Shown here: piece by piece, positions 24,950 to 33,953 of the stretch | How the letters are laid out: every line of letters starts with the position of its first letter | Numbering within the stretch: position 1 is the stretch's first letter | Source: Eubacteriales bacterium | Lineage (GTDB): Bacteria; Bacillota; Clostridia; Lachnospirales; Lachnospiraceae | Length of the DNA: 33,953 nt | Direction: 5' to 3' | NCBI GenBank assembly: GCA_030524585.1 | Contig: JAUNGJ010000033.1 | Location: 1-33,953, forward strand | Notes under the pieces: model-generated | Told to the model about the DNA's origin: nothing | The model's database searches: none | What the model saw: only the letters and a program-made list of their open reading frames with translations | Translations under genes and position numbers: made by a program

Positions 24950-25825
24950 ATGGAACAGAGAATATCACAGTTCTTTGGACAATATTTAGAGGCTCTCTAT
25001 TTTCCGGAAGTAAGTATAACAGATGTATTAGAGATTATTATTATTGCATTTCTGGTATATCAGATAATGGTATGGATTAAAAACACAAAGGCTTGGATGC
25101 TGCTTAGAGGAATTGTGGTTCTGGCTGTATTCATCCTGATTGCAGCTTTACTGCAGATGCATACGATTCTGTGGATTGCAAAGAATTCGGCGGCAGTTAT
25201 GGCTACAGCAGCGATTGTAGTTTTTCAGCCGGAGCTTCGAAGAGGCTTGGAGAAGCTTGGTGAGAAACAGATGATCTCATCTATGATGCCGTTTGACTCG
25301 AAGGAAAAATGCCGTTTTAGTGATGAAACGGTGGAAGGAATTATTCGGGCGGCATTTCAGATGAGTAAGGTGAAGACAGGCGCGCTGATTGTTGTGGAGC
25401 AGGTAATTCAGCTTACAGAGTATGAAAGCACAGGGATTCAATTAGACTGCCTTGTGTCCAGTCAGGTGCTGATTAATATTTTTGAACACAATACGCCACT
25501 ACATGATGGCGCAATTATTGTGCGCAATGATCGGATTGTGGCGGCTACCTGTTATCTGCCACTGTCAGACAATATGGGACTCAGCAAAGATTTGGGAACC
25601 AGACATCGGGCAGCGGTAGGGATGAGTGAGGTTAGTGATGCGCTGATTATTGTTGTTTCGGAAGAGACGGGAAAGGTTTCGGTTGCCCAGGGCGGCCAGT
25701 TGATCAGGGGGATTACGGAAGAAGAGTTAAGGGAGCGGTTTGACGCAATCCAGAATCGGAAGTCATCGTCCAGAAGGTTTATTGCAAAATGGAAAGGAAG
25801 GCTGAAAGATGAAAAAAAGTCTTAA
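24950..25825 (+). CDS. cdaA: Diadenylate cyclase CdaA
   Basis: CdaA makes the second messenger c-di-AMP from two ATP, controlling potassium and osmolyte transport and wall homeostasis. Three N-terminal transmembrane helices (about 24-43, 50-68 and 71-92) are followed by the DAC domain. The catalytic DGA motif is at 186-188 in LHDGAIIV, and the RHR motif at 218-220 in GTRHRAAVG. The length of 291 is normal. A GGGGGTGACAGG site precedes the ATG. The cdaR gene overlaps its end by 17 bases, as is usual for this pair. Confidence 0.96.
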   Translation: MEQRISQFFGQYLEALYFPEVSITDVLEIIIIAFLVYQIMVWIKNTKAWMLLRGIVVLAVFILIAALLQMHTILWIAKNSAAVMATAAIVVFQPELRRGLEKLGEKQMISSMMPFDSKEKCRFSDETVEGIIRAAFQMSKVKTGALIVVEQVIQLTEYESTGIQLDCLVSSQVLINIFEHNTPLHDGAIIVRNDRIVAATCYLPLSDNMGLSKDLGTRHRAAVGMSEVSDALIIVVSEETGKVSVAQGGQLIRGITEEELRERFDAIQNRKSSSRRFIAKWKGRLKDEKKS

Positions 25826-27065
25826 GAATAATCTTGGCCTTAAGCTGTTAGCTTTCTTATTTGCATTCTTGCTGTGGCTGATAGTGGTCAACATAGATAA
25901 TCCGGTTAAAAGTAAAACGTTTTCCGGAATCCCAGTGATAGTAGAGCATTCAGAGGTTCTTACGGAGCAGCAGAAAACGTATCAGATTATAGATGATACT
26001 CAGAATGTGAATGTTACTGTTTCGGCAAAACGCCGTATATTGAGCAATATTAAAGCAGAAGATATAGTGGTAACTGCGGATATTAAAGAGATGTATCTGG
26101 ATTCACAGATCCCGTTAAAAGTAACAATTAATGGTTATGAGGGTAATTATGAGAACGCTGTGACTAATCCGAGGAATCTGCAGATTAAGATCGAGGAGAA
26201 TGTCAGCAAGACGACGTACATTACTCCGATGGCAACCGGACAGGTGAGAGATGGTTATGTTCTTGGAAAACTGCAGACAGATCCGGAAACTGTAACGATT
26301 AACGGACCTGAATCATTGGTTGGCAAGATAAGCAAAGTAGTGGCTGCGGTGGATGTGTCAGGTTTGGCTGAAGATTCTACGCTGGAGTCAGAACTGGTTC
26401 TTTATGATGAAGACAATAATGTGATTGATCAGTCACGGCTGGCGAATAATCTGGGTAATTTCGGTGTAAACGTAGTAGTTACGCTGTATAAAACACGAAC
26501 GGTTCCGATTCATGTAGACACTTCGGAAGTAACGGTTAAAGAAGGATATTCCATCGCATCAGTGAAGCTGGCGCCGGAAGAGATTGAGATTGCAGGGCCG
26601 ACGGAAGTACTGAATGAGGTGGAAAGCATTGAGGTGCCGGCAGAGGAGCTTGGAGGAGAAGAAATTGATTCCAGAACGGAATTAAATATTGATCTGACGA
26701 AATATCTGCCGAAGAATATTCAGCTTGCGGACAGTATGGCAAGTTCGGTGATTGTTACAATTGCTCTGGAAAGAGATGGAACCAGGAATTATGAACTTCC
26801 AATCGGCTCAATTACGGTTAAGAATTTGGACGATGATCTGCGTATGAGCTACAGTAAAACAGACAATTTGGAAGTACATGTGAAAGGCGCCAAGGAATAT
26901 CTGGATGCATTGGATATTGAGCGTATTGCAAGTATTAACCTGAAAGAGTATAAAAAAGCGGGGACATATACCGTACCAGTGTTGATAGAATTACCGGAAG
27001 GCTGCTCCCAGGAGGGAGAGGTTGAGGTAGAGATTATACTAGAGAAAAAGGAGAACGGAGGTTAG
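25809..27065 (+). CDS. cdaR: CdaR, YbbR-domain regulator of CdaA
   Basis: CdaR is an extracytoplasmic protein with a single N-terminal membrane anchor (LKLLAFLFAFLLWLIVV, about 11-27). About four YbbR repeats cover most of the remaining residues; conserved pieces such as VTINGPESLVGKI and IEIAGPTEVLNEV mark repeat boundaries. It contacts the membrane domain of CdaA and modulates its activity. The length of 418 is within the family range. Translation is coupled to cdaA through a 17-base overlap, with GGAAGG inside cdaA as the ribosome binding site. Confidence 0.94.
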   Translation: MKKSLKNNLGLKLLAFLFAFLLWLIVVNIDNPVKSKTFSGIPVIVEHSEVLTEQQKTYQIIDDTQNVNVTVSAKRRILSNIKAEDIVVTADIKEMYLDSQIPLKVTINGYEGNYENAVTNPRNLQIKIEENVSKTTYITPMATGQVRDGYVLGKLQTDPETVTINGPESLVGKISKVVAAVDVSGLAEDSTLESELVLYDEDNNVIDQSRLANNLGNFGVNVVVTLYKTRTVPIHVDTSEVTVKEGYSIASVKLAPEEIEIAGPTEVLNEVESIEVPAEELGGEEIDSRTELNIDLTKYLPKNIQLADSMASSVIVTIALERDGTRNYELPIGSITVKNLDDDLRMSYSKTDNLEVHVKGAKEYLDALDIERIASINLKEYKKAGTYTVPVLIELPEGCSQEGEVEVEIILEKKENGG

Positions 27066-27069
27066 AGAA

Positions 27070-27333
27070 ATGGTTAGTAAGAAGGTTACGATTATTAACC
27101 CTACAGGACTTCATTTGCGGCCGGCCGGAATCTTCTGCAATACAGCAGTAAGATACGACAGCAAGGTTACATTCCAGTATGGAAATATGAGCGCAAATGC
27201 GAAGAGCGTGCTCAGTGTGCTCGGCGCCTGCATCAAAAAAGGCGATGAGATTGAACTGGTATGTGAAGGCAAGGATGAAGAAGAAGCTTTGGCTGCTATG
27301 GTAAAAGCAGTCGAAGATGGATTAGGGGAATAA
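27070..27333 (+). CDS. HPr-family phosphocarrier protein
   Basis: This 87-residue protein carries the phosphorylatable His15 in GLHLRPA and the regulatory Ser46 in ANAKSVLSVLGA. It therefore has both the PTS phosphotransfer site and the HPr-kinase site, unlike Crh, which lacks His15. It begins four bases after cdaR with a GGAGG site, so it is co-expressed with the c-di-AMP genes. In other Firmicutes HPr is usually with ptsI, and glmM often follows cdaR, so the context is unusual. It may be the main HPr or an extra regulatory copy; the window cannot decide this. Confidence 0.92.
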   Translation: MVSKKVTIINPTGLHLRPAGIFCNTAVRYDSKVTFQYGNMSANAKSVLSVLGACIKKGDEIELVCEGKDEEEALAAMVKAVEDGLGE

Positions 27334-27351: not shown

Positions 27352-28269
27352 ATGGGGAAAGCTACTTTAGTGATTATGGCAGCAGGAATCGGCAGCAGAT
27401 TCGGCGGGGGGATCAAGCAACTAGAAGCGGTAGGACCGAATGGCGAAATTATTATGGATTATTCCATCTATGATGCGCTGGAGGCAGGCTTCGACAAAGT
27501 AGTCTTTGTAATCCGAAGAGATTTGGAAGAAGATTTCAAACGGGTGATTGGTCAGCGCATTGAGAAGGTTGCAGAAGTAGAATATGCGTATCAGGAACTC
27601 ACGGATATTCCTGAGCGTTTTCTTAGCAAAACAGAAGGACGAAAGAAACCGTGGGGAACCGGTCAGGCAATTCTGTGCTGTAAGAATGTAGTGCATGAAC
27701 CGTTTTTGGTTATTAATGCTGACGATTATTATGGCAAAGAAGCATACAGGGAGGCCTACGAATACTTGACAGGCAGAAAATCAGATGACGGATATTCTGC
27801 CTGCATGATAGGATTTGTCCTTAAAAATACACTGAGTGATAACGGAGGTGTTACCCGTGGTGTATGTAAGGTTGACGAAAACCGTATGCTGGCCGATATT
27901 GTAGAGACACGTAACATTGTCAAAACGGCGAATGGCGCGGTGGTACAGACTGAAGAAGGAATAACTCCTATTGATGTGGAATCGGAAGTGTCCATGAATA
28001 TGTGGGGACTTTCACCGGCGTTTATGGATGTTCTGGAGAGTGGATTTGAAGCATTTCTGGAAGAATTGGATCCGGAGAATCTGAAAGGAGAGTATCTTCT
28101 GCCGACGATAATTGGCGGTTTGCTGAAGGAAGGAAAAATGAAGGTGGAAGTACTGCAGTCTCATGACAAATGGTTTGGTGTGACTTATAGAGAGGATAAG
28201 AAAGACGTTGTGTCAGAGATACAGAAGCTGATTGCCGATGGAGTGTACGCGGAAAAGCTGTTTCAGTGA
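27352..28269 (+). CDS. Nucleotidyltransferase-fold protein, probably sugar-phosphate nucleotidyltransferase
   Basis: The N-terminal glycine-rich NTP loop reads MAAGIGSRFGGGIKQL (9-24), and WGTGQA (101-106) and INADDYYG (121-128) match the substrate and metal-binding motifs of the fold. Such enzymes join a sugar phosphate or small alcohol phosphate to a nucleotide. The 305-residue length lacks the left-handed helix domain of GlmU. ATG 27352 is chosen because AAGGAG lies five bases before it; a GTG at 27349 crowds it. It starts soon after the HPr gene and ends the operon at a terminator. The substrate is not readable; UDP-glucose or GlcNAc-type enzymes are only candidates. Confidence 0.82.
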   Translation: MGKATLVIMAAGIGSRFGGGIKQLEAVGPNGEIIMDYSIYDALEAGFDKVVFVIRRDLEEDFKRVIGQRIEKVAEVEYAYQELTDIPERFLSKTEGRKKPWGTGQAILCCKNVVHEPFLVINADDYYGKEAYREAYEYLTGRKSDDGYSACMIGFVLKNTLSDNGGVTRGVCKVDENRMLADIVETRNIVKTANGAVVQTEEGITPIDVESEVSMNMWGLSPAFMDVLESGFEAFLEELDPENLKGEYLLPTIIGGLLKEGKMKVEVLQSHDKWFGVTYREDKKDVVSEIQKLIADGVYAEKLFQ

Positions 28270-28283
28270 AACGAATATGAAGT

Positions 28284-28333
28284 AAAAAGGGTGTACCGTT
28301 ATGTGGGAATAACGCATGACGGGCACCTTTTTT
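28284..28333 (+). terminator. Terminator ending the cdaA operon
   Basis: A long imperfect stem pairs AAAAAGGGTG (from 28284) with CACCTTTTTT (to 28333). It continues inward through CCGTTATG and CGCATGACGG with bulges and G-T pairs, and ends in a T run. Confidence 0.8.
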
Positions 28334-28489: not shown

Positions 28490-30037
28490 ATGATGACAAG
28501 AAATATTTTAGAGTATTTGGAACAATCAGCAGAGCAGTTTCCCGATAAAATCGCTTTTGCAGATGAAAATAATGCATGTACGTATATGGAATTAAAAAAT
28601 AAAGCTCAGAAAATAGGAGGCCGTCTGGCTAAGCTTGTACCACCCAGATCACCGATTCCGGTATTTATGGAGAAAAGCGTCAGCGCGATCTGCTCTTTTA
28701 TGGGCGCGGTGTATGCAGGGTCCTTTTATGTGCTTCTGGATCCCAAGCTTCCTGCCGAGCGGCTGAAACAGATTTTGACCACTCTGGATGCTGAAGTGAT
28801 ATTAACAGATATAAAATATGAGAAACAGTTACGGCTGCTTGAATTTGAGGGAGCTGTTGTCGATATCAGCAATGTTTTGAATGCAGCCGCCGGATTGGGT
28901 GATGCCGAACTGCTGTCGGAGGAGAAAGCATTGCTGGAGATGGTCAAAGGACAGCGGCTTGATATAGATCCGCTCTATGCAATTTTTACATCCGGGTCCA
29001 CGGGAGTGCCAAAGGGTGTTGTCGTAAGTCACAGATCACTGATTGACTTCATAGAAGATTTTACGGAAATATTCGGGATTGCAGGCGAAGATGTGATTGG
29101 AAACCAGGCGCCATTTGACTTTGATGTGTCAGTAAAGGATATTTATTCCACACTGAAGACGGGCGCGACGATGCAGATTATCCCTAAGAAGATGTTTTCA
29201 TTTCCGACAAAGCTTTTGGATTATCTGGAAGAGAGGAAGGTGACGACCCTGATATGGGCTGTGTCGGCGCTGTGTATTATCACTACACTGAAGGGATTTG
29301 AATATAAAGTACCCGGGCAGATAAAGCGGGTCATCTTTAGCGGAGAGGTAATGCCGGTCAGACATCTGAATGAATGGAGAAGATATTTGCCGGATGCGAT
29401 GTATGCCAATGTGTACGGACCGACAGAGATCACCTGTAACTGTACGTATTATATCGTTGACCGGGAGTTTGAACCGGGGGAAAATCTTCCGATGGGAAAA
29501 CCTTTTCCAAATGAGAAGGTGTTTCTGCTGGACGATGAAAATAAGCAGATCACAGAGCCGGGCATCAAAGGAGAACTTTGTGTGTCGGGAACGGCTCTTT
29601 CTCTGGGGTATTATAATAATCAGGAACAGACAGCAAAGGCTTTTGTACAGAATCCCTTGAATACAAGCTGGCTGGAACCAATCTATCGGACAGGTGATCT
29701 GGCTTATTATGGAGAAGAAGGATACCTGTACTTTGCATCCAGAAAAGATTTTCAAATTAAGCATATGGGACACAGGATTGAGCTGGGAGAAATTGAGACA
29801 GCAATGGAACGTATGGAGGAAATTGTTCGTACATGCTGTATATACGATGAGGAAAGTAATAAGATTATTGCTTTCTATGAAGGCGACGCCACAAAAAAGC
29901 AGATTGTGCAAAGAATCAGCGCCTCTCTGCCGGCATTTATGATTCCGAATAAGTTTCAGAAGATAAGCGGCTTCCCACTTACTAAAAATGGTAAGATTGA
30001 CCGGGGAAAATTGTTGAAAGACTATCTGGAGGATTAA
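28490..30037 (+). CDS. Amino acid adenylation enzyme, DltA-like
   Basis: This ANL-superfamily enzyme activates an amino acid with ATP and loads it on a carrier protein. The 515 residues carry the P-loop FTSGSTGVPKG (166-176), FDFDVS (209-214), YGPTE (309-313), YRTGD (399-403), DFQIKHMGHRIELGEIE (420-436) and the catalytic lysine K502 in NGKIDR. D212 matches the DltA aspartate that holds the substrate amine. The DltA pocket motif FCGEVLP reads FSGEVMP here (S284 for the cysteine). It is alone, without NRPS domains, as in DltA. The ACP, acyltransferase and SGNH genes downstream fit a dlt-like pathway. It may not use D-alanine. The gene overlaps the next by one base if the first ATG there is used. 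Confidence 0.9.
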   Translation: MMTRNILEYLEQSAEQFPDKIAFADENNACTYMELKNKAQKIGGRLAKLVPPRSPIPVFMEKSVSAICSFMGAVYAGSFYVLLDPKLPAERLKQILTTLDAEVILTDIKYEKQLRLLEFEGAVVDISNVLNAAAGLGDAELLSEEKALLEMVKGQRLDIDPLYAIFTSGSTGVPKGVVVSHRSLIDFIEDFTEIFGIAGEDVIGNQAPFDFDVSVKDIYSTLKTGATMQIIPKKMFSFPTKLLDYLEERKVTTLIWAVSALCIITTLKGFEYKVPGQIKRVIFSGEVMPVRHLNEWRRYLPDAMYANVYGPTEITCNCTYYIVDREFEPGENLPMGKPFPNEKVFLLDDENKQITEPGIKGELCVSGTALSLGYYNNQEQTAKAFVQNPLNTSWLEPIYRTGDLAYYGEEGYLYFASRKDFQIKHMGHRIELGEIETAMERMEEIVRTCCIYDEESNKIIAFYEGDATKKQIVQRISASLPAFMIPNKFQKISGFPLTKNGKIDRGKLLKDYLED

Positions 30038-30039
30038 TG

Positions 30040-31218
30040 ATGAAACGTGAGAGATTGGACGAAGTGGCGAAAAAATATGGTACACCTGCATATGTGTTTG
30101 ATCTGGATATGCTGAGGGAGAGAGTGCATATGATAAAGGAGTGTCTGGGAGAACGGACAAAAATTTGCTTTGCCATGAAAGCAAACCCATTCTTAATAGA
30201 TACGTTATTAAATGTGGCAGATTGTTATGAGGTGTGTTCGCCGGGTGAATTTCATATCTGCGAAAAAGCGCAGATTCCAATGGAACAGATTGTACTTTCC
30301 GGCGTCAGCAAAGACCGGGAAGATATCGATTATGTTTTGGAGCAATATGATGGGAAGGGGATTTATACTGTTGAATCCAGACTACACCTGCATATTTTGG
30401 AAGAATGTGCGGCAAAGCGGAATATGGTAATTCGCGCTCTGGTTCGGGTGACCAGCGGAAATCAATTTGGCTTGGATGAGGAGGATGTGTTGGATATTTT
30501 TTTGCATAGAAACGAATATCCTCATGTTGAATTTCAGGGGATTCAATATTATTCCGGAACACAGAAGAAGGCTGCCAGGATTCAGAAAGAGCTGGAGTGG
30601 CTGGATGAATTGATGATTCGAACGGAACGGGAGACGGGATTAGAGATCAGACATTTGGAATATGGTCCTGGATTTTACGTATCATATTTTGAAGGAGACG
30701 AGGAAGCTGAAGACAGAAAACTGCTGGAATGGTTTGCAGAACAATTGGGCAAAATGCATTTTGACGGACAGATCACACTGGAGATGGGAAGATATATTGC
30801 AGCATATTGTGGGTATTATCTGACCAGTATTGTAGACAGGAAAAAGAATAAAGGACAAAATTATTGTATTGTGGATGGAGGAATCCACCATTTGAATTAT
30901 TATGGACAAATGATGGCGATGAAAATCCCGCATTATGATCAGATTCAATCCGGAGAAAGGGAAGGGAGAGAAGAACTGTGGAATATATGTGGTTCTCTGT
31001 GTACGGTAAATGATGTGCTGGTAAAAAAGCTTCCGCTTCAAAGTCCTAAGCTGGGAGATGTACTGGTATTTAAGCGCGCGGGAGCCTACTCCGTAACAGA
31101 AGGGATGTACCTGTTTTTAAGTCGGGATATGCCGGAGATTATCTTTTATGAGGCGGAAGTGGGCAGCAGGAGTGTGAGAAGAAAACGGGGAACTTATGAG
31201 ATTAACAGCGCAAAATAA
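30040..31218 (+). CDS. Fold-type III PLP decarboxylase (diaminopimelate decarboxylase family)
   Basis: The 392-residue protein has the alanine-racemase-like barrel and the C-terminal beta domain of DAP and ornithine-type decarboxylases. The PLP lysine is K47 in FAMKANP. Phosphate and cofactor motifs are ECGPGF-like EYGPGFYVSY (about 207-216) and EMGRYIAAYCG (248-258). VDGGIHHL and GAYSVTEGM (348-356) are further landmarks. In DAP decarboxylase the substrate motif is CESxD; here it is LCTVND (320-325). The HIGSQ segment reads YYSGTQ. Specificity therefore probably differs. GGAGG is seven bases before ATG 30040, which I prefer to ATG 30037. It lies between adenylation and ACP genes, suggesting action on a free or carrier-bound amino acid. 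Ordinary lysine synthesis is the main alternative. Confidence 0.88.
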   Translation: MKRERLDEVAKKYGTPAYVFDLDMLRERVHMIKECLGERTKICFAMKANPFLIDTLLNVADCYEVCSPGEFHICEKAQIPMEQIVLSGVSKDREDIDYVLEQYDGKGIYTVESRLHLHILEECAAKRNMVIRALVRVTSGNQFGLDEEDVLDIFLHRNEYPHVEFQGIQYYSGTQKKAARIQKELEWLDELMIRTERETGLEIRHLEYGPGFYVSYFEGDEEAEDRKLLEWFAEQLGKMHFDGQITLEMGRYIAAYCGYYLTSIVDRKKNKGQNYCIVDGGIHHLNYYGQMMAMKIPHYDQIQSGEREGREELWNICGSLCTVNDVLVKKLPLQSPKLGDVLVFKRAGAYSVTEGMYLFLSRDMPEIIFYEAEVGSRSVRRKRGTYEINSAK

Positions 31219-31262
31219 GATTACGAAATAATTAAGAAGTGATTAAGATTTTGTGAGTAAGG

Positions 31263-31290
31263 TTGTTTTCCACTTTATGGCTGGTATAAT
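31263..31290 (+). promoter_or_regulatory. Promoter before the carrier protein gene
   Basis: TTGTTT (31263-31268) and TATAAT (31285-31290) are 16 bases apart, with an extended -10 (TGGTATAAT). It allows the carrier, acyltransferase and SGNH genes to be expressed apart from the first two genes. Confidence 0.7.
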
Positions 31291-31325
31291 ACAGGTATTG
31301 GGGCAGGAAAGGAGTATAAATAAAA

Positions 31326-31556
31326 ATGGACAGGTTGATTGAACTTTTAAAAGAAATTAGACCAGATGTAGATTATGATAGCTGTACGACATTGATTGAC
31401 GATGAGATACTGGATTCTTTTGCGATTTTATCAATTGTAGGAGAGCTGGAGGAAGAATATGGAGTTGTGGTAACTCCTGCAGATATTATTCCGGAGAATT
31501 TTAATTCGGCACAGGCTTTGTGGGGGATGGTTCAGAGACTGCAGGCGGAAGCATAG
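31326..31556 (+). CDS. Acyl carrier protein, DltC-like
   Basis: The 76-residue four-helix carrier is rich in acidic residues. The phosphopantetheine serine is S31 in ILDSFAI, the DSF form common in DltC and NRPS-type carriers rather than the DSL of fatty-acid ACP. AAAGGAG lies 10 bases before the ATG. It follows a dedicated promoter and precedes an MBOAT gene by nine bases. It should carry the amino acid activated by the adenylation enzyme at 28490 to the membrane. No phosphopantetheinyl transferase is in the window, so the cell's general one must modify it. Confidence 0.9.
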   Translation: MDRLIELLKEIRPDVDYDSCTTLIDDEILDSFAILSIVGELEEEYGVVVTPADIIPENFNSAQALWGMVQRLQAEA

Positions 31557-31565
31557 GAGAAGAAG

Positions 31566-33098
31566 ATGTCGCTTATATCAATGGAGTTCCTGATATTTGT
31601 ATTTGCAGCAGTATTGGGATATTATCTAATTCCAAAAAGATTTCAATGGATATGGCTGCTGATATTCAGCTATATTTATTATGCGTCCTCGGGTGCGGTA
31701 TATATTCTGTTTATATTATATACGACGCTGGTGACATATGGAACCGGATTGGCGCTGAATGTTATGGAAAATCAAAGTGGCAGGGAAAAGAAAGCAGTTA
31801 AGAAAAGCAAAAGGGGAATACTGGTATTAGCTCTTGTCCTTGATTTTGGCATGCTGGCTGTCTTAAAGTACACCAATTTTGCTATCAGTAATTTTAATAT
31901 GCTGTTCCATGCAGGAATTCCATTTCGGAATTTCCTGCTGCCGCTTGGAATATCGTTTTACACATTCCAATCGGTGGGATATGTGATGGATGTGTATTGG
32001 AGACGGTGCGAACCGGAAAAGAATTTGTTCCGGTTCGCATTATTCGTTTCTTTCTTTCCACAGATACTGCAGGGTCCAATTGGAAGATATCAACGATTAG
32101 CACACCAGCTGTACGAGGAGCACTCCTTTGATTTTACCAGAATTGAGCGGGGACTGCAGCTGGTTATATGGGGATATTTTAAAAAGCTTGTGGTTGCTGA
32201 GACTGCAGCTATTTTTGTGGCGGCGGCTTTTGATGAGTATCAGACTTATCCGGGAATTGCGATATTTGGCGTGCTGGCATATACAGCTCAGCTGTATGGT
32301 GATTTTTCAGGAGGAATGGATGTTGTGATTGGGATTGCCAGTCTTTTTGGGATTGAGCTTGACGAGAACTTCAAACGGCCCTTTTTCGCAGTGTCGATTA
32401 CCGATTTCTGGCACAGATGGCATATTACGCTTGGCACCTGGATGAAGGATTATGTGTTCTATCCCCTTTCTCTTTCCAGAGTAATGAATCGCTTTGGAAA
32501 GCTTTGTAAGCGGGTGCTGGGCAGGGCATATGGAAGAGTGGTGCCAATCTGCTTATCGAACATTGTGGTGTTTTTTGTGGTTGGTATCTGGCATGGAGCC
32601 GCATGGAAATTTATTGTATATGGTCTATACAATGGCTTTATCATTGCATTTAGCGGTTTAATGGCGCAGAATTACCGGAAATGGATGAAAAACTGCCATA
32701 TTGATGGAAAGTCAAAGGGATGGAAGATCTTCCAGATAGCCAGAACCTTTCTTCTGGTAAATATCAGTTGGTTTTTTGACCGGGCAGATACGGTGCCGCA
32801 GGCACTTTCAATGATGAAGAACGCAGTTACCTGTTTTCATCCGGAGGACTTGCTGAAGGTTCATGTGGGAACAGCAGGGACAGTGTATACGGTGTTGGCA
32901 TTGGGGATTCTGGCGGCTGGCTGTGGAGTGATTTTTATTGTAAGTTTTCTGCAGGAAAATGGAATGAAGATACGGGCGATGATTGCGGCAAAGCCATGGC
33001 TGGTTAGATGGGCGGTTTATTTGATACTGCTATTTTCAATTCCGATGCTGGGGCAGCCGCCGGATTCGACAGGAGGATTTATTTATGCACAATTTTAA
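31566..33098 (+). CDS. MBOAT-family membrane O-acyltransferase (DltB/AlgI-like)
   Basis: This 510-residue protein spans the membrane about ten times and moves an acyl or aminoacyl group from a cytoplasmic carrier to an acceptor outside. Family landmarks are PLGISFYTFQSVGYVMDVY, FFPQILQGPIGRY, YGDFSGGMDVVIG and FWHRWHITLGTWMKDYVFYP. The catalytic histidine is H343 in VGIWHGAAWKF. The overall pattern is that of AlgI and DltB. GGAGAAGAAG precedes the ATG. The next gene overlaps its end by 14 bases, matching the usual pairing of MBOAT and SGNH proteins. The acceptor could be a teichoic acid, glycan or glycolipid; the sequence does not say. Confidence 0.93.
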   Translation: MSLISMEFLIFVFAAVLGYYLIPKRFQWIWLLIFSYIYYASSGAVYILFILYTTLVTYGTGLALNVMENQSGREKKAVKKSKRGILVLALVLDFGMLAVLKYTNFAISNFNMLFHAGIPFRNFLLPLGISFYTFQSVGYVMDVYWRRCEPEKNLFRFALFVSFFPQILQGPIGRYQRLAHQLYEEHSFDFTRIERGLQLVIWGYFKKLVVAETAAIFVAAAFDEYQTYPGIAIFGVLAYTAQLYGDFSGGMDVVIGIASLFGIELDENFKRPFFAVSITDFWHRWHITLGTWMKDYVFYPLSLSRVMNRFGKLCKRVLGRAYGRVVPICLSNIVVFFVVGIWHGAAWKFIVYGLYNGFIIAFSGLMAQNYRKWMKNCHIDGKSKGWKIFQIARTFLLVNISWFFDRADTVPQALSMMKNAVTCFHPEDLLKVHVGTAGTVYTVLALGILAAGCGVIFIVSFLQENGMKIRAMIAAKPWLVRWAVYLILLFSIPMLGQPPDSTGGFIYAQF

Positions 33099-33953
33099 AC
33101 GGACAGCAGGCATAATCTCTTTTTTGTTGGTGATTGTATGCATGAATGAAGTGCTGCTGCTGGCGTTAAAGCCCTGTAATTTTTTCAGAAATGATATATA
33201 TCATGCAAGGACAGAACAGTATAATGATATATTTGTGGGAACTTCTCATGGAAAGGCAGGAATTCATCCGGGGATTGTAGATGAAATAACCGGTAAAAAG
33301 AGCATGAATCTCTGCCTGGGCGGGGAGTATCCGATAGACAGCTATTTTATTATAAAAGAGCTGTGCAGGAAATATATACCGGAGAGAGTGATTTATGAGC
33401 TTGATCCTGGATACTGGGTAACCAAACCGTCATTGGGACCGGATTATGCTACAGTATATGAAGAACTGCCCTGGTCAGGCGTGAAATTAGAGTATTTTAA
33501 TGCAAAGATGAAGGATATTGATTTTCGGGCAACCTTATTTCCATGGTATGTGTATCGCCAAGGATACAGAAATATATTGACGACGTTACGTACAAAGCTG
33601 ACCCGGGAATATATGAATTACGGAGATTCATTTTACAGGAATGAAAAAGAAGCCTATGGGCATAGGAGCGCGGTGAGTATTCATCGAACAAATATGCCTA
33701 AAAGTGAAGAAAATCTTGTTCTTTGGGATGAGCGGAAGCTGGAGGAGGAATCGATAGAATACTTTGAAAAACTGGTTCAGCTATGTCAGGATAAAGGAAT
33801 TGATCTGATTGTGATAACCGCCCCCATTCCAGAAGAAACCAGAGAGAAGTATGCAGACAGCTATGAGAAAGCGGATGAGTATTTCCGGGAGTATATGAAA
33901 AAAGAAGGTATAGTATATTATAATTTCAATGAGATAGAGATAGAAGGATTTGA
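33085..33953 (+). CDS. SGNH/DltD-like partner of the acyltransferase (3' end beyond window)
   Basis: The first 289 residues are present and the frame is open to the window edge. An N-terminal signal-anchor helix (IISFLLVIVCMNEVLLLAL, about 10-28) puts the rest outside the membrane. The first SGNH block reads IFVGTSHGKAGIHP (about 49-62), where the usual GDS or GSS is GTS followed by His. Further on NLCLGGEYPIDSY and LIVITAPIPEET fit the family. The start follows AGGAGG at eight bases and overlaps the MBOAT gene. DltD, AlgX/AlgJ and similar proteins take part in the final transfer to the polymer. The end of the gene, with the last catalytic block, is outside the window. Confidence 0.85.
   Translation, partial: MHNFKRTAGIISFLLVIVCMNEVLLLALKPCNFFRNDIYHARTEQYNDIFVGTSHGKAGIHPGIVDEITGKKSMNLCLGGEYPIDSYFIIKELCRKYIPERVIYELDPGYWVTKPSLGPDYATVYEELPWSGVKLEYFNAKMKDIDFRATLFPWYVYRQGYRNILTTLRTKLTREYMNYGDSFYRNEKEAYGHRSAVSIHRTNMPKSEENLVLWDERKLEEESIEYFEKLVQLCQDKGIDLIVITAPIPEETREKYADSYEKADEYFREYMKKEGIVYYNFNEIEIEGF

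Follow-up and report, generated by a model that had tools for sequence, protein, structure and literature searches.

A conserved Dlt-like gene cassette with an embedded fold-type III decarboxylase in Lachnospiraceae and related bacteria

Surface D-alanylation, the task of the canonical Dlt system, controls charge and cationic-peptide resistance in Gram-positive bacteria, and the textbook dlt operon is not known to include a decarboxylase. A contig of 33,953 nt from a bacterium of the family Lachnospiraceae (JAUNGJ010000033.1, assembly GCA_030524585.1), analysed here over its whole length and referred to as the window, ends in a set of five genes that departs from this plan. All five lie on the forward strand in the last 5.5 kb, and they encode an amino-acid adenylation enzyme (A), a fold-type III pyridoxal 5'-phosphate (PLP) decarboxylase (D), a carrier protein (C), a DltB-like MBOAT acyltransferase (B), and an SGNH-like protein (S). 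This order, given in a preliminary description of the DNA, is borne out by the gene calls and domain matches, and the view expressed there that the decarboxylase is foreign to a textbook dlt operon also holds. As in the canonical Dlt system, a stand-alone adenylation enzyme, a carrier, a DltB-like MBOAT with an invariant His and a membrane protein with SGNH-like residues are encoded in one cluster. Unlike in that system, A and B score far under the cut-offs of the DltA and DltB models, most positions of A's pocket code are different, the set includes a decarboxylase, and S is unrecognised by Pfam.

To our knowledge, the chemistry by which an omega-amino acid is made on a carrier protein is known only from antibiotic pathways. 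In butirosin biosynthesis, where a Glu-carrier is converted to a 4-aminobutyryl-carrier, loading is performed by BtrJ, an ATP-grasp ligase, and no MBOAT or SGNH protein is known in that pathway. The decarboxylase BtrK acts on Glu-S-BtrI, according to PMC7857480. The analogy with BtrK drawn in the preliminary description is supported, BtrK being the best solved relative of D by sequence, and D, which is here paired with a carrier gene, may likewise work together with a carrier; however, butirosin biosynthesis makes the side chain of an antibiotic, and D is 24–26% identical to BtrK. In the vicenistatin (VinN/VinO/VinL) and fluvirucin (FlvN/FlvO) pathways, likened to the cassette by description and not by sequence, an acidic amino acid is loaded by a stand-alone adenylation enzyme and, once carrier-bound, is the substrate of a PLP decarboxylase. 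PMC11284099 describes VinN as loading 3-methylaspartate on VinL, decarboxylation by VinO as requiring prior thioester formation, and FlvN as taking Asp. Unlike the cassette, these are polyketide starter pathways with no surface transferase, and in VinN the carboxylate contacts are K330/R331. Yet another pair, the exosortase A-associated adenylate-forming ligase and fold-type III decarboxylase (TIGR03098 and TIGR03099), is also similar in composition. With E values of 1e-10 or lower, TIGR03099 and the lysA model alike are matched by all 27 D members, and the D of the window scores slightly higher against the former (186.4 vs 173.3 bits); both proteins are nevertheless far under the cut-offs of the pair (D 186.4 against 478.45, A 202.5 against 592.35), which belongs to other phyla.

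The five-gene neighbourhood of D is not due to chance, being repeated over 32 loci and 68 D genes. The 32 loci (L006–L037), sharing 40–58% identity with D in the best segment, came from a scan of 84,980 species genomes with short D peptides including YYGQMMAM, so the conservation of that stretch of D is partly by construction; by their titles they belong to Lachnospiraceae, Erysipelotrichaceae, other Clostridia and Bacilli, and gut or rumen is the source of many. Further loci (L088–L122) were found with a D profile, and near-duplicates are present in the set, e.g., L007/L008, L029/L030 and L010/L012. Among the 68 D genes of all fetched loci, the window excluded, 65 have a carrier gene on the same strand at most 7 kb away, 62 have A and 56 have B near by on that strand, and the exact order A-D-C-B-S occurs in 39; some, not all, of the missing neighbours fall at contig ends. 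D is thus kept in the cluster, contrary to the possibility, raised in the preliminary description, that it is not conserved there. A and D overlap or are at most 20 nt apart in 52 of 58 pairs, as they do in the window, where the start codon of D overlaps the stop codon of A; starts were called mechanically as the first start codon after a stop, and gene overlaps are approximate.

Of 150 genomes sampled from the host's family, 35 have D, while canonical DltA exceeds its cut-off in just 4 of them; in a phylum-wide sample, D is present in 3 of 348 genomes, host included. LysA and DltA were searched for in 24, and dapB in 18, of 33 genomes (the window's own and those of the 32 loci), and none of the 24 D-carrying genomes has a DltA above the cut-off. 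Mutual exclusion of DltA and D is not supported by these counts, since canonical DltA is rare across the whole family sample, and eight genomes have a DltA match with E ≤1e-100, of which three carry D as well (G043, G082 and G090; only G082 has a DltA above the cut-off). The cassette is a genuine and broadly conserved version of the Dlt chassis with D built in, an unusual combination of ordinary parts. A literature search by title recognised no description of an A-D-C-B-S cassette, subscription papers lying mostly outside its coverage.

D matches both the N and C domains of the Orn/DAP/Arg decarboxylases and, at 35.2 bits (cut-off 24.1), Ala_racemase_N. Against the LysA model TIGR01048 it scores 173.3 bits, below the cut-off of 297.9, and all 27 D members match this model at E 1e-10 or better; 8 of the 15 separate LysA genes of the D genomes are likewise under the cut-off (255–287 bits). 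The PLP lysine is kept in 66 of 67 D rows, the catalytic Cys in 66 and the decarboxylase Asp in all 67, and we take Lys48 and Cys322 of the window's D to fill the first two roles. Directly after the catalytic Cys, 66 of 67 D rows have T or S and 16 of 16 LysA rows have E, and an Arg found in all 16 LysA rows of the printed alignment aligns with the Tyr-Tyr-Gly-Gln stretch of D, invariant in 27 rows; in LysA this Glu and Arg presumably hold the distal end of the substrate. In a maximum-likelihood tree of 45 of the 89 rows, the 24 D sequences form one clade with support of 100/100 and the 16 LysA sequences another, also fully supported, while BtrK is placed firmly with neither and is drawn on the LysA side of the midpoint root. 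The D profile scores BtrK (199.2 bits) above SbnH (175.0) and the best LysA (171.6). BtrK is also ranked first by Foldseek for the D model, and VIA-align ties BtrK and LysA as structural relatives of D; these structural matches also assign D to fold type III. The Tyr/Phe change at the PLP-stacking residue of D was dropped as a mark of BtrK because Phe stands there in 8 of 16 LysA rows as well.

The genome content bears on the same question. The host has a second LysA-like gene (276.5 bits, slightly under the cut-off), so the case that the preliminary description had named as fatal to its proposal, with D as the cell's only LysA, does not apply. A separate LysA is found in 15 of the 24 D genomes, above the cut-off in 7 and at 255–287 bits in 8, and in the remaining 9 no other LysA match exceeds 56 bits (55.8 in one, 23.4 in another). 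In none of these 9, which are draft genomes, does dapB exceed its cut-off (no match in five, 26–32 bits in three, 88 in one), and it is present in 8 of 9 other D genomes tested. D is therefore kept where the lysine route seems to be missing. On the grounds of residues, tree and genome content, a role of D as LysA or as a supplier of lysine, the simpler reading offered in the preliminary description, was rejected; judged by its sequence, D does not belong to LysA and is nearest to BtrK among solved structures. In L086 (3709–5244) a D-like decarboxylase gene directly precedes a carrier-like gene in an unrelated cluster and groups with D in the tree (98/92), and in L107 (3713–7057, minus strand) D extends to form a protein of 1114 aa that also has Rib/Ig-like and transglutaminase domains.

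The adenylation enzyme A exceeds the cut-off of the amino-acid adenylation model TIGR01733 (335.8 against 317.4 bits) and is far under that of the DltA model TIGR01734 (303 against 559.85). Its predicted pocket residues, D212, V213, K216, S259, I282, S284, V308, C316 and N317, correspond, as we take it, to D235, V236, K239, S278, I299, S301, V322, C330 and N331 in GrsA numbering. The resulting code, DVKSISVCN, differs from the DLMS.C of the DltA-type A of L080 and L081, and the D-Ala set of Leu 236, Met 239 and Cys 301 is absent. The pocket is thus not that of DltA and is basic at position 239. This position is basic in all 63 D-paired A (Lys in 60, Arg in 3). Among 61 D-less A it is Lys in 28 and Arg in 2, and the idea that Lys239 is exclusive to partners of D was rejected. 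The full pocket type D-x-K-...-C-N is accompanied by D in 59 of 67 cases versus 4 of 57 for all other types. In the host-family sample the figures are 31 of 38 and 3 of 38, in a tally of 76 A that includes two extra A-like open reading frames (ORFs; in L147 and L153) and leaves out 4 of 78 A places (G091:C63, G076:C61, G055 and G016:C330); the Fisher p values for the pairing ignore relatedness.

D is found with three pocket types, the main type, IAR, and DAKSAVLGV (L107), which the A tree places as separate lineages; this tree was built by a quick method from 87 of 124 A rows, comprising about half of the main-type D-paired ones, short, overlong and low-scoring rows having been dropped. In the IAR type, Ile replaces the amine-binding Asp235; three such A are paired with D, and genome G071 has a fourth, L154, that stands by itself. 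The same genome has, on another contig, C-D-B-S without A (L121), with 1.8 kb between C and the contig end, possibly the other part of a split system. Val236 of A matches the TycA variants switched to a beta-amino acid, in every sequenced one of which Val236 is reported (PMC11253843), and the Ser at 301 matches S299 of VinN. VinN was not among the matches listed for A, which carries no weight either way.

The remaining products complete the Dlt-like set. C matches the PP-binding model weakly (20.6 bits against a cut-off of 20.8) and has the attachment Ser, and Ser31 is invariant in the 21 of 33 carriers that were aligned. B matches MBOAT at 63.7 bits and the DltB model at 165.7 bits, under the cut-off of 375, and its His286 and His343 are kept in 93 of 93 rows. 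The window covers all of contig G000:C114 (33,953 bases), so S is incomplete and whatever follows it is absent. S has an N-terminal hydrophobic stretch followed in all 73 rows by G-x-(S/C), with Ser in 58 of them and Cys in 15, and a C-terminal block with D and H in all 72 rows left when the incomplete row of the window is set aside; searches of Pfam (including SGNH/DltD), NCBIfam and PDB sequences gave no match for S.

We propose, at about even confidence, that the cassette encodes a Dlt-type surface-acylation pathway with a built-in decarboxylation step on the carrier. A would activate an acidic alpha-amino acid, most likely Glu or Asp, via its side-chain carboxylate and load it on C; D would remove the free alpha-carboxylate on C, giving an omega-aminoacyl-C (4-aminobutyryl or beta-alanyl); and B and S would carry the acyl group across the membrane and esterify an envelope polymer, leaving the free amine outside. 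The step assigned to D is modelled on BtrK (Glu to 4-aminobutyrate) and VinO (3-methylaspartate to 3-aminoisobutyrate), and that of B and S on the handling of D-alanine by DltB and DltD. The substrate, the order of loading and decarboxylation, the export step and the acceptor are what we infer. The basic residue at 239, together with the amine-binding Asp retained in most of these A, suggests an amino acid with a second carboxylate. PLP-dependent decarboxylation needs a free alpha-carboxylate by the amine, so a step on the carrier is possible only after loading via the other carboxylate. Since a basic pocket suits a substrate still bearing the extra carboxylate, decarboxylation would follow loading; D acting first would need no base in the pocket, which favours loading, decarboxylation, then export by B and S. 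With the amine distal to the thioester, the pairing of D with an IAR-type A that lacks Asp235 is what one would expect.

Several points weigh against this proposal. No D lies close to eight A with the D-type pocket. Two of these, L087 and L161, stand alone where their contigs end, and in G001, the genome of L161, D is found at the end of a different contig; in L123, L124, L128 and L143, A, C, B and S are present without D; and two cassettes carry a formyl transferase gene (PF00551), located in D's slot between A and C in L126 (4922–5803, minus strand) and after C in L125 (2–850, minus strand). D occurs elsewhere in the genomes of L124, L126 and L143 (G079, G082 and G081), and those of L123, L125 and L128 (G002, G147 and G057) are outside the D-positive set of the 150-genome family sample. 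D is thus a common, not an obligatory, partner of this pocket. Moreover, an A loading Glu through its alpha-carboxylate would show Lys239 too, leaving D no task on the carrier. The key residues of VinN at 330/331 (K330/R331) are also absent from A, which has C330 and N331.

Of the other explanations, the one in which D decarboxylates a free amino acid and its product (4-aminobutyrate, beta-alanine or another amine) is then loaded on C by A as a ready-made omega-amino acid is in our view rather unlikely. Many fold-type III decarboxylases use free amino acids, and the existence of same-pocket cassettes without D means that the loaded substrate could have another source; yet the base at 239 in every D-paired A suits an extra carboxylate and not a decarboxylated product, and the nearest solved relative of D by sequence is the carrier-specific BtrK. 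Were D instead a diaminopimelate decarboxylase acting on the free or carrier-bound compound, with lysyl groups reaching the surface, its nearness to LysA (matched by all 27 members) would be accounted for, and Asp235 and the basic residue of A could hold the distal carboxylate. This is very unlikely in view of the Thr or Ser after the catalytic Cys, the position of the LysA Arg within the Tyr-Tyr-Gly-Gln of D, and the division of the D genomes into those with a separate LysA and those with no other LysA match above 56 bits and no dapB above its cut-off.

The acceptor may also be something other than an envelope polymer, the pathway making a secreted small molecule or modifying a lipid or protein by means of B and S. 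BtrK and VinO do belong to antibiotic pathways, MBOATs have many acceptors, and among 405 flanking ORFs no gene family is common to more than 14 loci, with no constant polymer or acceptor neighbour. However, the cassette repeats the Dlt parts list (A, C, DltB-like B and SGNH-like S), D-less sister A-C-B-S cassettes are common in the same family, and two-component genes, which are often envelope-linked, flank some loci; we regard this option as improbable. That the cassette is an ordinary D-alanine Dlt system with D as a passenger, e.g., a housekeeping decarboxylase or racemase, is barely credible: B and the gene set do resemble Dlt, and D does match Ala_racemase_N, but A has DVKSxSxCN in place of the DltA pocket residues (DLMS.C in L080 and L081), D is kept in the cassette across many genera with its decarboxylase Cys and Asp conserved, and one D genome (G082) has a DltA above the cut-off elsewhere.

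The two formyl transferase cassettes are consistent, short of proof, with a tailoring role at the carrier stage for the gene in D's slot. The proposal of carrier-bound decarboxylation may tentatively be widened to a Firmicutes family of surface-decoration systems that would edit an amino acid on its carrier before export. The pocket type would pick the amino acid and a swappable on-carrier enzyme, mostly the decarboxylase and in two cassettes the formyl transferase, would set the displayed group (4-aminobutyryl, beta-alanyl or N-formyl-aminoacyl); such charged esters should outlast D-alanine esters. Many D-less A-C-B-S cassettes (L070–L084 and L127–L162) carry at least 10 other pocket codes, e.g., DAKSAGLGM, SMxSLALDI, DIFSWALLD and DNLSLCLDV, and look like diversified Dlt-like systems.

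The features of the window are listed in Table 1. The putative terminator-like hairpin, a consensus match only, lies between an upstream nucleotidyltransferase gene, ending at 28269, and A; terminator-like sites number 10 in the region, against a mean of 4.0 in shuffled sequences. Other upstream genes (24950–27333), among them ybbR (Pfam) and presumably one cdaA-like gene and one for HPr, likewise precede the hairpin. D and C are 107 nt apart, and a TATAAT-like stretch between them (window 31270–31320), noticed by eye and not listed by the scan that gave the hairpin, is a possible internal promoter. Response-regulator-like genes are found near the cassette in 14 loci and sensor-kinase-like genes in 10 (e.g., L009, 1442–3695), and an AcpS-like gene adjoins it in 3; each of these families was named from one example.

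Table 1. Positions of the cassette genes, selected codons and the upstream hairpin in the window.
Feature	Position	Strand	Remarks
Putative terminator-like hairpin closing the upstream transcription unit	28296..28322	+	10 pairs, 5 GC, then T run
A, stand-alone amino-acid adenylation enzyme, DltA-like, non-DltA pocket	28490..30037	+	515 aa; TIGR01733 above cut-off, DltA model below
A, Lys216 codon	29135..29137	+	GrsA pocket position 239; Lys or Arg in 63/63 D-paired A
D, fold-type III PLP decarboxylase, not LysA	30037..31218	+	393 aa; BtrK nearest solved structure by sequence
D, Lys48 codon, presumed PLP lysine	30178..30180	+	invariant in 27 rows; K in 66/67 D rows, one gap
D, Cys322 codon, decarboxylase-motif Cys	31000..31002	+	invariant in 27 rows; C in 66/67 D rows
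C, acyl/aminoacyl carrier protein	31326..31556	+	76 aa; attachment Ser31 codon 31416–31418
B, DltB-like MBOAT acyltransferase	31566..33098	+	510 aa; MBOAT match, DltB model below cut-off
S, membrane-anchored SGNH-like protein in the position of DltD	33085 to contig end (33953)	+	by alignment; ORF called to 33951, incomplete

The proposal of a decarboxylation on the carrier yields a clear assay, in which one adenylation enzyme, one carrier and one decarboxylase are followed by intact-protein mass. If it is true, an extra enzyme trims CO2 off an amino acid held by the carrier, the cell surface of a gut-type bacterium may receive another charged group, and in many relatives of the host the surface would bear an omega-amino acid whose synthesis took place on a carrier protein.

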